Below, in pieces: positions 25,549-31,669 of a stretch of 57,237 nt of DNA (positions are counted from its first letter, which is position 1; every line of letters starts with the position of its first letter). The position numbers were made by a program, and so were the translations under genes. Where the stretch lies: the NCBI GenBank assembly GCA_937926445.1, contig CALBAK010000060.1, positions 1 to 57,237 on the forward strand. The letters are read 5' to 3'. The stretch comes from an uncultured Alphaproteobacteria bacterium (lineage in GTDB: Bacteria > Pseudomonadota > Alphaproteobacteria > Geminicoccales > Geminicoccaceae). The notes under the pieces were generated by a model. That model was not told the DNA's origin. It made no database searches and saw only the letters and a program-made list of their open reading frames with translations.

Positions 25549-26211
25549 TCAGAGCTCGGCCCACATCCGCAACAGATTGCGGAAGCTCTTGTCGACCAGA
25601 TCGAAGACCTCGCCCTTGCCGCGCTCGTCGAACAGGCGGCGCCGGGCGGTGTCGAGCTCGAACAGGAGCTCGCGCCGCTCCGCCTCGCGCACCCGGCTCT
25701 GCAGCCAGCCCACGAGCGCGAGCCGGATCCCGCGCGTCACGGGCTCGACCCGGTGCAGCGTGGTCGAGGGGTAGAGGACGAGGTGGCCGGGTGCGAGCTT
25801 GAAGCCCTGCTCGCCGGCCGCGCTCTCGATCACGAGCTCGCCACCCTCGTAGGCCGCCGGGTCGGCCAGGAACAGGGTGAAGGAGCAGTCCGAGCGGATC
25901 CCGCCCATGATCGCGTCGTCGACGTGCCGGCCGTAGCTCATGCCGGGCCCGTAGCGGCTGAGGAGCAGCGGGCCGAAGCGGTGCGGCCGGGCGGCCATGG
26001 CGAGCACGGGATGACTCTCGAGCCGCCGCCGCGCGCGGGCGAGGATCGCCTCGGCGAGCGGGTCGTCGGCCGCTGCCTGGGCATTGTCCTTGACGCCCCG
26101 GGCCGCCCAGCCTGCCGTTGTTCTGCCGTCGAGGAACCGAACCTGCTCCAGGCGCGCACAGAATTCTTCCACATCGGCCGAGCTTAGAACTTCTCCAATG
26201 CAAATGATCAT
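25549..26211 (-). CDS. piuC: Fe(II)/2-oxoglutarate-dependent PKHD-type dioxygenase, PiuC/YbiX family
   Basis: A 220-residue non-haem iron oxygenase usually found beside TonB-dependent iron-siderophore receptors and repressed by iron. The iron triad is visible: His96 and Asp98 ([10 protein letters not shown]) and His153 ([10 protein letters not shown]), with Arg163 for 2-oxoglutarate (GIRLAL). ATG 26211 has GGAGGT eight bases upstream and gives typical family length; an upstream start at 26250 is weaker. No receptor gene is present here. Instead a divergent gene encodes a secreted Gly-Gly-Glu repeat protein. It sits inside what is normally a contiguous purS-purQ-purL cluster. Confidence 0.88.
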
Positions 26212-26303
26212 CGGCACGCTACCTCCGCTATCGACGATCTCGCTCATCAACGACTATAGTTCGCTTGCGATCGGCGCAAGGATCCTCGAGGCGGAGAACT
26301 GAA
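26212..26303. promoter_or_regulatory. Divergent promoter/operator region between piuC and the GGE-repeat gene
   Basis: This 92-base gap is less GC-rich than its surroundings. It contains the self-complementary ACTATAGT (26253-26260), which could serve as a -10 on either strand. Next to it is a perfect inverted repeat CTTGCG-atcgg-CGCAAG (26264-26280), positioned near the -35 of the piuC direction. The arrangement resembles an operator controlling both genes. The regulator is not identified; iron control is inference from PiuC. Confidence 0.35.
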
Positions 26304-27119
26304 ATGATTCGAAGAAGGATCTGGTTGGGCGTAGGCGCTTCGGTGTTGGTTCCCGGACTCGGCGGGCTCGACGAGTGGGATCGGGGCCGGCTCGCCCGTC
26401 TCGCCCGGGCGGCCGGTGGCGAGGGCGGCGAGGGCGGCGAGGGTGGCGAAGGCGGCGAGGGGGGCGAGGGCGGGATCGACCCCGAGGCGGCGCGGCGGGA
26501 TCCCGTCGTCTTCGGCACCGCCCTCGCCCTGGTCGACGCGCATCTCCTGGCCGGGTTGGCGGCGATCGAGGCGGGCGAGCGCACGCTCGGCGCCACGCTG
26601 TTCGGCCACGCCATCGCCGAGGTCTATGTCGAGCTCGAGCCGATCCTCGAGGCGCGCGGGGTGAAGCCGTTCCTCGCCGAACTCGAAGCCGCCCAGGCCG
26701 CGGCCGAGCGGGCCTCGGGCGAGGCGGTCCGCGCGGCGGTCGACCGGGTCCTCGCCGTCACCGCTGCGGCCGCGGCGAAGGCGCCTTCCGACGGCCGCTC
26801 GCCGCTCGCCGTCGAGGCCGGCGTGCTCGCCGAATGCATCGACCGCGCCGCGCTCCAGTACCAGTCGGCGGCGGCGCGTCCAGACGACCTCGAGGCCTGG
26901 CTCGACGGGGTCGGTTGGAAGCTCGTGGCCGAGCGCAGGGCAGCCGCCGTATTGCCCGAGCTCGCCCGCCGCGACGCCGATGCCGCGAGTGCCGTTTCGA
27001 CGGCGCTCGCCGCCCTGAAGCCGCTCTATCCCTCGGCCCGCCCGGGTGCGCCCGACGATGCCGGTGCGGCGCTCGCCGCTGCTGCCCGGGCCAAGCTCGC
27101 CGCGGCCGCGCTCCGCTGA
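26304..27119 (+). CDS. Secreted protein with Gly-Gly-Glu repeats, unknown function
   Basis: A 271-residue protein with an N-terminal Arg cluster and hydrophobic segment (IRRRIWLGVGASVLVPGLGG) that fits a signal peptide or anchor. Six tandem Gly-Gly-Glu units follow at residues 38-55, then a largely alpha-helical Ala/Glu-rich region with conserved-looking segments (FGTALALVDAHLLAG, FGHAIAEVYVELEPILEARG, LAECIDRAALQYQSAA). GGAG precedes the ATG. The acidic flexible repeat could bind metal ions or act as a spacer. Divergence from piuC across a shared promoter suggests a part in iron handling; this is inference. I do not recognise a named domain. Confidence 0.75.
   Translation: MIRRRIWLGVGASVLVPGLGGLDEWDRGRLARLARAAGGEGGEGGEGGEGGEGGEGGIDPEAARRDPVVFGTALALVDAHLLAGLAAIEAGERTLGATLFGHAIAEVYVELEPILEARGVKPFLAELEAAQAAAERASGEAVRAAVDRVLAVTAAAAAKAPSDGRSPLAVEAGVLAECIDRAALQYQSAAARPDDLEAWLDGVGWKLVAERRAAAVLPELARRDADAASAVSTALAALKPLYPSARPGAPDDAGAALAAAARAKLAAAALR
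26415..26468 (+). repeat. 9-bp tandem repeat (six units) encoding Gly-Gly-Glu
   Basis: Six in-frame copies of a nine-base unit close to GGCGGCGAG, with synonymous third-base differences between copies. The synonymous variation argues for selection on the protein sequence rather than recent slippage. Confidence 0.9.
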
Positions 27120-27559: not shown

Positions 27560-30500
27560 TTGGATCACGCGTGCGCATCTCGCGGGTCGGTGCCGGGCGG
27601 GAAGCCGGGCTCCCTCGATTCGATCGTTCGGCTGCTCGCGCATCTCCTGCGCGTGCCGATCGCAGCCGCGACGATCGCCGAACGGGATCGGCTCGTCGTG
27701 GTGGCCAGCATCGGCTGCCCGTTCGACGAGCTGCCGCGGCACGGCTCGCTGCCCGGGTGCACGCTCGACCGCGGCGGACTCGAGCTGATCGAGGACCTGC
27801 TCGCTCTCGAGCCGCCCTTTCCGGTGCCGGTGATCGACGGGCGGCCGCTGCGCTTCTATGCCGGCCTGCCGATCCGCGGACCCGAGAGCCAGCTCGTCGG
27901 CACGCTCTGCGCCGCCGATTTCGCGCCGCGCCGGCTCGACGAGGGCGAGACGGCACAGCTTCGAATGCTCGCCGACCTCGCCGCCGATCAACTGCTCCTC
28001 GCGCGCGAAGCCGACGAACATCGACGCCTGGCGGCGGCGCTCGCGGAGAGCGAACGTCGCTTGGTGGATTTCGCCGAGACCGCCTCGGACTGGTTCTGGG
28101 AGATGGACGCCGAGCTGCGCTTCTCCTGGCTGTCCGAAGCGGTGCGCACCCGTTTCGGGATCGCCCCGGATTGGCATTACGGCAAGACCCGGCTGGAGCT
28201 CGCCGCCACCGAGGCCGACCGCGAGGTCGCGCAGCGGGTCCAGGAGCTCATGCTTCGGCGCGAGCCGTTCCGCGACTTCGAATACTGCCGGCGCGGCCCG
28301 ACCGGTGACCATTGGCTCCGGATCTCCGGCAAACCGGTCTTCGACGAAGCCGGACGGTTCCTGGGATATCGCGGGACGGGCCGCGACGTCACCGAGCTCA
28401 GGCGCGTGGAGGCCGAACGGCGCGAGGCGGAAGAGCGCTATCGCACGCTCTTCGAGCTCTCGCCGGACGGTCTCTTCGTCAAAGATCGGGAGCATCGCAT
28501 CCTCTACGCCAACCGTGCCGCGGCCGCGCTGTTCGGCGTAGCGAGGATCGCGGATCTGACCGGACGCTCGAGCCTCGAATTCGTGGCGCCGGAAGATCGT
28601 CGGCTCGTCCGCGAAAGGACGGGCCGACTTCTGGAGGAGGGCGGGGTCGTTCCGCCGACGCGCCTGCGCATCCGGCGAGCCGACGGTGCCGAGCGGATCG
28701 TCGAGGCGGCGGCGACCAGGTTCGAGGAGGATGGCGAGCCGCGCGTCCTCGTCGTCCAACGCGACGTGAGCGAGCGCGAGCGGGCGGAGCAGGCGCGCCG
28801 CGAGGCCGAGGAGCGCTATCGTACGCTCGTCGAGCTGAGCCCGGACGCGCTCCTCGTCCTGCAGGACGGCCGGTACGTCTTCGCCAACCGCCGCGCCCTC
28901 GAGCTTTTGGGCGCCAAGGAGGTGGCGGAGATCGTCGGCAAGCGGCCGCGCGACCTCTACCCCCAAGACTACGTGCCCTCGATCGAGGCCCGCGTCGAAC
29001 GGCTGCTCGCGCAGGGGGGCACCCTACCGCCGCTCGAGGTTCGGATCCGGCGGCTCGACGGCGAGCTCCGCGACATCGAGACGAGCGGGGCCGCCATCCC
29101 GTTCGACGGCAAGCCCGCGATCCAGGTGGCGATCCGCGACATCACGGAACGCAAGCGAGCCGAGGCGGCGCGGCGCGAGGCCGAGGAGCGCTATCGAGCC
29201 CTGGTGGAGCTCAACCCCGACCCGGTCGTCCTGGTCGAGGACGGCCGGTTCGTGTTCGCGAGCGAGCCCGCCGCGCGGCTGTTCGGGGTGGCCGACGCCC
29301 GCGAGCTGATCGGTCGCTCGATCTTCGAATTCGTACCCGAAGCGCTGCACGCCGCGATCCGAGCCCGCCATGCGACCGAGCTGCGAGAGGGCGAGGTCCT
29401 GCCGCCGCTCGAGCTCGAGATCGTCCGTCCCGACGGCACCCGGGTCGAGGTCGAGGCCAAGGGTTCGCGCGTGGTGGAGGGCGGGCGGCGGATGCTGCTC
29501 GGCGTGCTGCGCGACATCTCCGAGCGCAAGCGGGCGGAACGAGCGATCCGCGAGGCCGAGGAGCGGTACCGCCTGCTGGTCGAGCTGGCGCCGGTCGGCA
29601 TCCTCCTTTTTCAGGACGGCGTCTACCGTTTCGCCAACCGCGCCGCGGCGACCCTTCTGGGCGCACGGGACCCGGACGAGCTGATCGGCCGCGATCCCTT
29701 CTCTCTGATCCTCGAGCCCTATCACGAGCGGATCCGGGCGCGTGCGGAGCGGCTACTCGCGGGTGGAGGGCCGGCCGAGCCGATCGAGATCGAGATGCGC
29801 CGGCTCGAAGGCGAGGTGGTGACGATCGAGACCGTGGGCGCGGCGATTGTCGCGGGCGGGCGGCCGGCGATCCAGATCCTGATCCGCGACATCACCGAAG
29901 CGCGACGCGCCCGACGCGCTCTCGAGGAGGCCGAGGCGCGCTGGCGCAGCCTGCTCGAACTCGCTCCGGACGCGGTCCTGCTGATCGAGAACGAGACCTA
30001 TGTCTACGCGAACCGTCGCGCCGCCGAACTCTACGGTGCGGCCGATCCGGCCGAGCTCGTCGGTCGTTCGCCCTTCGATTTCATCCTCGAGGAATTCTGG
30101 CCGCGCATTCGCGAGCGCGCCGCCCGGCTCCTCGCCCACGGCGAGAGGCTGCCGCCGATCGAGATCCGCATCCGACGCCTGGACGGAACGATCCTCGACG
30201 TCGAGACGACCGGGGCGGTGATCGAGGACGGCGGCCGGCGGGTGATCCAGAGCGTGATCCGCGACATTTCCGAGCGCAAGGCGCTCGAGGCCGAGCTCTG
30301 GCGACGGGCCCACCACGACCCGCTGACCGGGCTACCGAACCGGCTCCTGTTCTTCGACCGGCTCGGACAAGCCCTGCACCGCTGTCGGCGCGAGGGCCGG
30401 AGCGGCGCCCTCCTCTCGCTCGACCTAGACGGCTTCAAGCTGGTCAACGACGGCCACGGCCACGACGCCGGCGACGCGCTCCTGGTCGAGGTCGCCCGGC

Positions 30501-31669
30501 GGCTCCGGGCGCAGGTTCGTCGGGTCGACACGGTGGCCCGGCTGGCGGGCGACGAGTTCGCCCTGGTCCTCTATCCGGTCGAGGGCGCGGCCGCGGTAGA
30601 GGCGGTCGGGCGGCGGATCCTGCGCGCGCTCCGCGACCCGATCGAGCATCGCGGGCGCCGCCTGCAGGTCGCCGCCAGCCTCGGCGCCACGCTCTTCCCG
30701 CACGACGGCGATCGGGCCGACGCGCTCCTCAAGAAAGCCGACCTCGCCCTCTACCGCGCCAAGGACCGCGGTCCCGGCAGCCTCGTCTTCCTCGACCGGA
30801 ACATGCACCTCGAGATCGAGGAGAGCGAGCGGCTCGGCGACGAGCTGCGTGCCGCCCTCGACGGGGACCAACTCGCGCTGCGTTTCGAGCCGCGGCTCGA
30901 CCTCGCGAGCGGAAGCCCTGTCGGCTTGCAGGCCCGCCTGCTCTGGAACCACCCGCGGCTCGGTCCGCTCGACGAGGAGGCCTTCGCTCGGCACGCCGAG
31001 GACGCCACCCTCGGCGTCGAGCTGGCACGCCGGACCGTCGCGCTCGCCCTCGAACGGATGACCGCCTGGCGGGCTGCAGGCGTGCCGTTCGGCCGGGTCC
31101 TGGTGCGCGCGCCGCCGACGCTCCTCGCTGCCGAGGACTGGGCGGCGGGCCTTTTGGACGAGCTCGCGGCCCGCGGCCTCGGGGCCGACACGCTCGCTTT
31201 CGCGATCGGCGGCTCGGCACTTCTCGGTCGGCACGCCGAGGCTGCCAGCGCCGCGTTGCGGCGGCTGCGCGAGGCCGGTGCCGCGGTGCAGCTCGACGAT
31301 CTCTCGATCTGCCGGGCGGCGCTGGTCGAGCTCTCCCGGCGGCCGGTCGACGCGGTACGACTCTGCGCCGAGCGGGTGAGGGCGCTCCGGGCCGAGCGCG
31401 AGGGCGGGGCGGTTTGCGAGGGGGCGGTCGTGGCACGGATCGTGGTCGCGGTCGCCCGCGAACTCGGCCTTTCGGTCGCGGCCGAGGGGATCGAGGATCG
31501 CACCGCCCTCGAGGCGGTGCGCGCGCTCGGCTGCAGCGAAGGGCAGGGCGCTCTCTGGGCCGATCCGCTCCCGGCCGAGGCGGTACCCGGCTGGCTCGCG
31601 GCCCGGGCGACGAACGGCCGGGCAGAGCGAGCCCGAATCGCCGCTACTGGATCGCCTCGGGGCCCTTGA
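27560..31669 (+). CDS. GAF/multi-PAS sensor diguanylate cyclase with degenerate EAL domain
   Basis: A 1369-residue cytoplasmic signalling protein. Order: GAF-like (about 20-150), PAS1 (165-283), five further PAS domains (about 293-405, 420-528, 544-653, 669-780, 795-903) joined by near-identical REAEERYR-type linkers, GGDEF (915-1080), EAL (1085-1350). The cyclase signature is AGDEF (996-1000), a variant compatible with activity. The inhibitory site RxxD is intact at 987-990 (RRVD). In the EAL domain the signature is QAR (1124-1126), the usual DDFGTG loop reads LDDLSI, and metal-binding Asn/Glu positions are lost, so phosphodiesterase activity is unlikely. No transmembrane segment is seen. 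The start is TTG 27560 with a weak ribosome binding site; a downstream start is possible. Its end overlaps purC by 26 bases. Confidence 0.9.
28436..30268 (+). repeat. Five tandem PAS-domain coding repeats
   Basis: Five units of about 120-126 codons each repeat the same layout: an R(Y/W)R-L-ELxPD opening, a RxFAN-like core, an LPPxExRIRRxDG strand and an IRDI(S/T)ERKRAE close. The similarity between units 3 to 6 is high enough to indicate internal duplication. The units are diverged, so this is not a simple DNA repeat. Confidence 0.8.

Follow-up and report, generated by a model that had tools for sequence, protein, structure and literature searches.

To our knowledge, no substrate is known for the PiuC/YbiX oxygenases. 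In Caulobacter, the PKHD-type hydroxylase CC_0027 is listed beside the receptor CC_0028, with a 26-fold rise in a fur mutant (PMC3751524), and cefiderocol-resistant Pseudomonas is reported with mutations in piuC (PMC11878004). EfeM and the imelysins are described as pairs of four-helix bundles with a site at their interface (PMC9174327, PMC3143127), and Glu93 and Glu97 are among the residues given for Site IV of EfeM (PMC9174327). On the regulatory side, Irr is described elsewhere as repressing its targets at low iron (PMC3413700), and MbfA is reported to be under Irr control (PMC3413700, PMC7762939).

The locus considered here lies in a stretch of 57,237 nucleotides (hereafter the window), which is the whole of contig C60 in a 3.71-Mb assembly (98.6% complete) from an uncultured alphaproteobacterium of the Geminicoccaceae. 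As the preliminary description of this DNA had it, a piuC gene and a gene for a protein with a Gly-Gly-Glu tract (the GGE protein) diverge from exactly 92 bases. The tract of this exported-protein candidate is coded by a short tandem repeat (Table 1). The usual TonB receptor is, as had also been noted, absent: none was found within five genes of the two, and genome-wide there was a single weak TonB-barrel match (39.5 bits). That match sits in an open frame (L061, G000:C4) with TPR-like repeats before a barrel-like end, which we read as TPR repeats plus a barrel and no plain receptor.

Table 1. Features of the piuC–GGE locus, in window coordinates
Feature	Positions	Strand	Description
piuC	25549..26211	minus	220 aa, start MIICIG
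GGE gene	26304..27119	plus	271 aa; translation with basic-hydrophobic N-terminus, Gly-Gly-Glu tract and helical domain
Divergent intergenic region	26212..26303		92 bases
Gly-Gly-Glu-coding 9-base repeat GGCGAGGGC	26418..26473	plus	6.2 copies (Tandem Repeats Finder)
All-helical domain, about residues 60-268	26481..27107	plus	AlphaFold model and conservation over 27 members
Inverted repeat CTTGCG-ATCGG-CGCAAG	26264..26280		Without mismatch; probably incidental
Irr-box-like site TTAGAACTTCTCCAA	26184..26198		Within about codons 5-10 of piuC; candidate operator

The gene pair, its recurrence and its neighbors

Profile matches to NCBIfam NF003974 (263.3 bits; cut-off 143) and to PF13640 and PKHD_C PF18331 (both above cut-off) identify the putative piuC product as a PKHD-type Fe(II)/2-oxoglutarate oxygenase, PiuC, with solved structures among its relatives (3dkq, 9ghl, 9qn0 and 9qn1-4). 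An HxD...H iron triad (RHVDD) and a basic 2OG-binding residue can be read directly in the sequence, their roles being those we take such residues to have. Downstream of piuC on the same strand lie purQ, purL, a BolA-like gene (33 bits, below the NCBIfam cut-off of 137) and a Grx4-type glutaredoxin gene with CGFS. This agrees with the reported order, in which bolA and the CGFS glutaredoxin had been counted as parts of an iron module. We rejected them as such: among the loci compared, the BolA-like and Grx4 genes recur only in four genomes of the window's genus, along with purL, and they go with the purine genes. The neighbors of the pair also include purS, and between purS and purC lies a 1359-aa open frame (27590-31669) of repeated sensor-like domains, ending in what we take to be GGDEF/EAL-like sequence.

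The piuC–GGE pair is real and conserved. Relatives of the GGE gene were found in at least 8 of 60 near relatives (own genome included), at least 23 of 385 genomes of the class (three from the window's genus) and at least 13 of 398 genomes of the phylum (own included). A scan of genome contigs confirmed at least seven loci among the 587 matched stretches listed, in Parvibaculum, Hyphomicrobium, Aurantimonas, a gammaproteobacterium, Synechococcus, Lyngbya and Limnothrix. These counts are lower bounds because the class search missed one genome (G290), whose GGE gene beside piuC (L133) was found afterwards and entered the PiuC tree but not the 44 loci counted below. Within the window's genus, two genomes of six gave no GGE gene at the cut-off used.

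piuC adjoins the GGE gene in 28 of 44 loci, spread over Alphaproteobacteria, Gammaproteobacteria and Cyanobacteria, and in 24 of the 40 outside the window's genus; at the other 16 it is not adjacent. The 28 comprise 26 of the 40 loci in which our home-made gene caller found the GGE gene, together with two (L051, L057) where the caller chose an antisense frame and adjacency was taken from coordinates. Two loci missed by the caller (L052, L059) were counted as non-adjacent, L064 was dropped as belonging to the same genome as L042, and three genomes (G204, G212, G606) contributed two GGE loci apiece. Of 26 scored adjacent arrangements, 20 are divergent and six co-oriented. Across the class sample, 18 of 23 GGE-positive genomes carried piuC, compared with 72 of the 362 that were GGE-negative (Fisher P 1.3e-8, not corrected for relatedness); the five GGE-positive genomes without it were G063, G154, G174, G191 and G288, three of which (G063, G191, G288) belong to one genus. 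Co-occurrence in other genomes, on which the preliminary description had staked its proposal of an undescribed iron-linked pair, is therefore what we find. Two irregular copies were also seen: an apparent frame-broken second GGE remnant between piuC and the intact GGE gene in a congener (L014 2095-2354, G002), and a tandem pair of piuC genes in L142 (G334:C17:25195-26592).

Within five genes of the GGE gene, raw counts over 40 loci were two for MbfA, four for a FutA-type substrate-binding protein, two for a MauG-type peroxidase, four for a TonB receptor (in two genera) and three for a multicopper oxidase; 27 of the 40 had none of these five further iron-related genes. The families were confirmed on examples, one each for the multicopper oxidase and the MauG-type peroxidase, and the Fe(3+)-binding protein of FutA type at L092 reached 1e-109 against iron-binding proteins of solved structure. 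Since the pair recurs in distant bacteria and some copies lie near iron genes, it is probably a real iron-handling unit. At two cyanobacterial loci (L068 2862-5655, L070 1510-4185), genes for a multicopper oxidase, the GGE protein and PiuC follow one another on one strand. In a further genome (L134 5014-10624, G285), piuC closes an imelysin-DHOR-imelysin-DUF1513 run, as if imelysins stood in place of the GGE protein; DHOR and DUF1513 were identified by scan there and the two imelysins by eye.

GGE-linked PiuCs fall outside the main clade of TonB-receptor-linked PiuCs. In a tree of 49 PiuCs, whose GGE-less rows came mostly from the top of the match list and not at random, eight of ten receptor-linked PiuCs formed one clade (support 100/100) with zero GGE-linked rows. 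Outside it were 29 GGE-linked rows, eight others and two receptor-linked ones, with two further rows beside the clade. The GGE label needed seven changes on this tree versus 15.8 in shuffles, so that GGE-linked PiuCs are clustered, yet not a single clade.

The GGE protein and its predicted fold

The GGE protein of the window matched no Pfam or NCBIfam family at E values up to 1, and 27 members of its family gave no credible family in either collection, with scattered weak matches of single members only. The strongest of these, to a collagen-like adhesin model (1e-4), we take to reflect the Gly-rich tract. Among the matches listed from open-licence literature we found no description of the protein, which by these searches appears to be undescribed and without an assigned family. 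Two congener proteins share its start and 80 and 78% identity with it. The family-conserved residues of the helical domain are His80, His102, Glu106, Tyr186, Asp201 and Gly204; of the 27 members, 26 keep His80, 26 keep His102, and 25 each keep Asp201 and an acidic residue at 106. The basic-hydrophobic N-terminus has no lipobox in the window's protein, and a lipobox-like motif occurs in 13 of 40 GGE members, a set with the window included. Judged from this N-terminus, the window's protein is probably exported.

AlphaFold models of the window's protein (pLDDT 84.3, pTM 0.77; 202 residues at pLDDT 90 or above) and of the Lyngbya protein (pLDDT 81.9, pTM 0.75), which share 26-27% identity, are both almost wholly helical beyond a low-confidence N-terminus containing the tract. 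Foldseek gave no match under E 0.001 for either model (best E 0.084). Its non-significant leading matches were EfeO, EfeM, EfeO, Algp7 and Algp7 at ranks 1, 2, 4, 5 and 7 for the window model and EfeM, EfeO and EfeO at ranks 1-3 for the Lyngbya model (prob 0.93-0.89), with weak EfeO/EfeM E values of 0.08-0.47. VIA-align returned mostly talin, catenin, vinculin and designed bundles at Z of about 8-12, described as common in its notes; among the 50 entries listed per model EfeO appeared once (Z 5.3 over 98 residues), and EfeM in neither.

Profile comparison weakly supports a resemblance of the GGE domain to EfeO/EfeM. Aligned by hhalign, 43 GGE rows and ten EfeO/EfeM domains gave P 0.0013 over 159 columns at a probability of only 18.8%, a score that 0 of 250 shuffled profiles matched and that exceeded the reversed profile too; the probability against a broader imelysin set was 0.2-0.3%. 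The alignment places HPxxELY of the GGE family on EPIAELF of EfeM, in which register His102 and Glu106 would sit on Glu93 and Glu97 of Site IV. PF09375 matched none of the 27 GGE members at E up to 0.1. The window's protein, which has HAIAE, carries no HxxE and does not fit GxHxxE; the family-wide pattern is HxxxE, some members additionally having an acid at the HxxE position. No M75 match was found in the six genomes of the window's genus. The idea that the GGE protein is a plain M75 protein was rejected on the lack of a Pfam match and of similarity to the imelysin set. It may nevertheless work like EfeO/EfeM, though failing the PF09375 and HxxE tests.

Candidate iron-responsive sites

At E values up to 1e-5 the genome encodes two Fur-family proteins, IrrA (equivalog NF045678, 177 bits versus a cut-off of 150) and a Zur-like protein below its cut-off, and no canonical Fur was found at that threshold. 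Sixteen of 22 other genomes gave a strong Fur-family match (E 1.7e-28 or better); the six without one are three congeners, two genomes of genus g15 and G743, and the survey did not extend to L065, L067 and L069. The best spacer match to TTGMGAATNANTTGCAA was equalled by no more than 4.6% of same-length locus stretches in 12 divergent pairs of Fur-bearing genomes and by 4.7-64% in five Fur-less pairs, a thin boundary and a separation that is partly circular because the spacers that were scored had also supplied the motif. Four Fur-bearing genomes (G166, G259, G375, G701), with co-oriented or miscalled pairs, did not enter the spacer scoring. The Fur consensus of E. coli, used, as was the ICE (Irr) consensus, in what we take to be its accepted form, did not separate Fur-bearing from Fur-less genomes. 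The spacer of the window itself showed nothing above local background, and a Fur box there was rejected. In the congeners, a Fur-like stretch covers the piuC start and overlaps coding sequence.

The single best match to the Irr consensus in the window lies at the 5' end of piuC (26183-26199; 10 of 14 positions), which is also the best Irr-like site in two congeners (L012, L013) and not in the third (L014). With up to two mismatches, TTAGAANNNTTCTAA has five sites in the genome, versus nine for the reversed control, including the piuC site and one 53 bases before mbfA. A narrower motif, TAGAAYNNNTCCAA, fitted to the piuC site, the mbfA site and that of L012, occurs exactly at ten sites in six genomes of the genus, versus nine for its reversed control: three at piuC, two before mbfA, two near katG (identified by scan in L190 only), two inside copies of one transporter-like gene and one unassigned. 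Furthermore, five of piuC codons 2-9 end in A/T in all three of the window, L012 and L013, versus 6 of the remaining 212 codons (P 5.9e-6). L014 shares two of the five, and such endings are generally somewhat commoner early (97 of 637) than later (2973 of 28702).

Because it is the best site of the window, is shared with mbfA and coincides with the early A/T codons, the Irr-box-like site over the piuC start is a good candidate operator, predicted only, and a better one than the CTTGCG inverted repeat of the intergenic region. If Irr represses here at low iron, the sign of control would be opposite to that of Fur in relatives.

A proposed iron-handling unit and its alternatives

The explanation that we consider best overall, and hold with moderate confidence, is an iron-handling unit under iron control, in which PiuC partners an exported, EfeO-like, iron-binding GGE protein. 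Our confidence is tempered by the failure of the E. coli Fur consensus to separate the genomes and by the majority of loci without a further iron gene. The GGE protein would leave the cytoplasm by a signal peptide here and as a lipoprotein in some relatives. Its acidic Gly/Glu tract would be flexible, and its EfeO-like domain would comprise two helical bundles, with the conserved histidines and carboxylates at the core of an iron-binding site. Once in the envelope, the protein could pass iron to an inner-membrane importer or, alternatively, buffer iron, with PiuC as its cytoplasmic partner oxygenase. Control of the pair would fall to Fur where that is present and here probably to IrrA, acting at the box over the first piuC codons.

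Alternatively, the unit may serve in defence against iron excess or peroxide and not in uptake, the GGE protein buffering envelope iron and the pair being switched together with MbfA and KatG in the genus. The placement of seven of the ten exact TAGAAYNNNTCCAA sites at piuC, mbfA and katG agrees with such a role, as do the Irr control of MbfA elsewhere and the mbfA gene that is the convergent neighbor of the GGE gene in two g15 genomes. The FutA-type and TonB-receptor neighbors and the Fur-box-like sites at other loci point instead to iron shortage and uptake, and the TAGAAYNNNTCCAA pattern is to be read beside the nine sites of its reversed control, gene context having been taken for the forward sites. 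On balance we regard a defence role as possible but somewhat unlikely.

A more specific version of the iron-handling unit concerns the tract, which ranges from 0 to 22 residues across loci and is longer where piuC is adjacent (28 versus 16 loci; Mann-Whitney P 6e-6, relatedness not removed). It measures 0-3 residues in all five GGE genomes of the class sample without piuC, three of them of one genus. The association retains relatedness, since only four independent pairs lie on well-supported branches; these run mostly in the same direction and are too few for significance. Exceptions are L093 (piuC adjacent, tract of 3) and L056 and L059 (no tract, though piuC is elsewhere in the genome). The pattern suggests, no more, that tract and PiuC work together. 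It is doubtful that PiuC, as a peptidyl hydroxylase with the GGE protein for its substrate, hydroxylates residues in the tract, or near the HP motif, before export and so makes new iron ligands for capture or buffering in the envelope independent of a TonB receptor.

The module could also serve another metal, such as copper, or a redox cofactor, the nearby iron genes being a chance of context. Multicopper oxidases at three cyanobacterial loci, MauG-type peroxidases at two loci and what we take to be CobW-type GTPases in some loci would fit such a role. Multicopper oxidases can be ferroxidases, and MbfA, the FutA-type binding protein and the Fur and Irr signals are signals of iron, so we find this reading distinctly improbable.

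The 92-base region had also been described as operator-like for its perfect inverted repeat CTTGCG-N5-CGCAAG. The repeat is exact where it was placed, is the sole exact copy of the motif in the 3.71-Mb genome and would lie immediately after the plus-strand promoter-like pair reported by a promoter scan (26231-26260), but about half of the successive 92-base stretches of the contig (294 of 622) contain a perfect 6+6 repeat with a spacer of 0-12, and 44 of 622 contain one with a spacer of 5; shuffling the 92 bases 2000 times gave such a repeat 403 times. The CTTGCG repeat is not kept in the three congeners that carry this gene pair, where the best matches cover 8, 7 and 9 of 12 positions (L012, L013 and L014). 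That it is a shared operator of both genes was rejected as highly improbable, on the chance-level frequency of such repeats and its loss in the congeners. Four genomes of the genus share TTGC(G/A) followed, about 16 bases on in the direction of piuC, by an ATA-containing stretch; these look like promoter elements, and the right arm of the repeat falls on the TTGCG-like stretch upstream of piuC that is common to the congeners.

An iron-handling unit of this kind would make the GGE proteins, an unannotated family, part of envelope iron handling in both Proteobacteria and Cyanobacteria, also in a genus without a detected canonical Fur or M75 and, in this genome, without a plain TonB receptor found. 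For the PiuC enzymes, a protein whose gene recurs beside piuC is a candidate substrate or partner, and Fur-type sites in some genomes with Irr-type sites in others at one gene pair would make a directly testable case of regulatory rewiring.

Three known systems come closest to the pair. In this genome mbfA and piuC share a box-like site, and MbfA is encoded next to the GGE gene in genus g15, but it is a named iron exporter with a rubrerythrin-type domain and belongs to a different family. PiuC/YbiX genes typically, though not necessarily, lie beside a TonB receptor gene, whereas the piuC of the window has the GGE gene as its partner and no receptor within five genes. Like EfeO, EfeM and the imelysins, the GGE protein is all-helical in its model, with conserved histidines and carboxylates and EfeO and EfeM as its top Foldseek matches; unlike them, it lacks PF09375 and, in the window, HxxE, and it carries an extra Gly/Glu tract.
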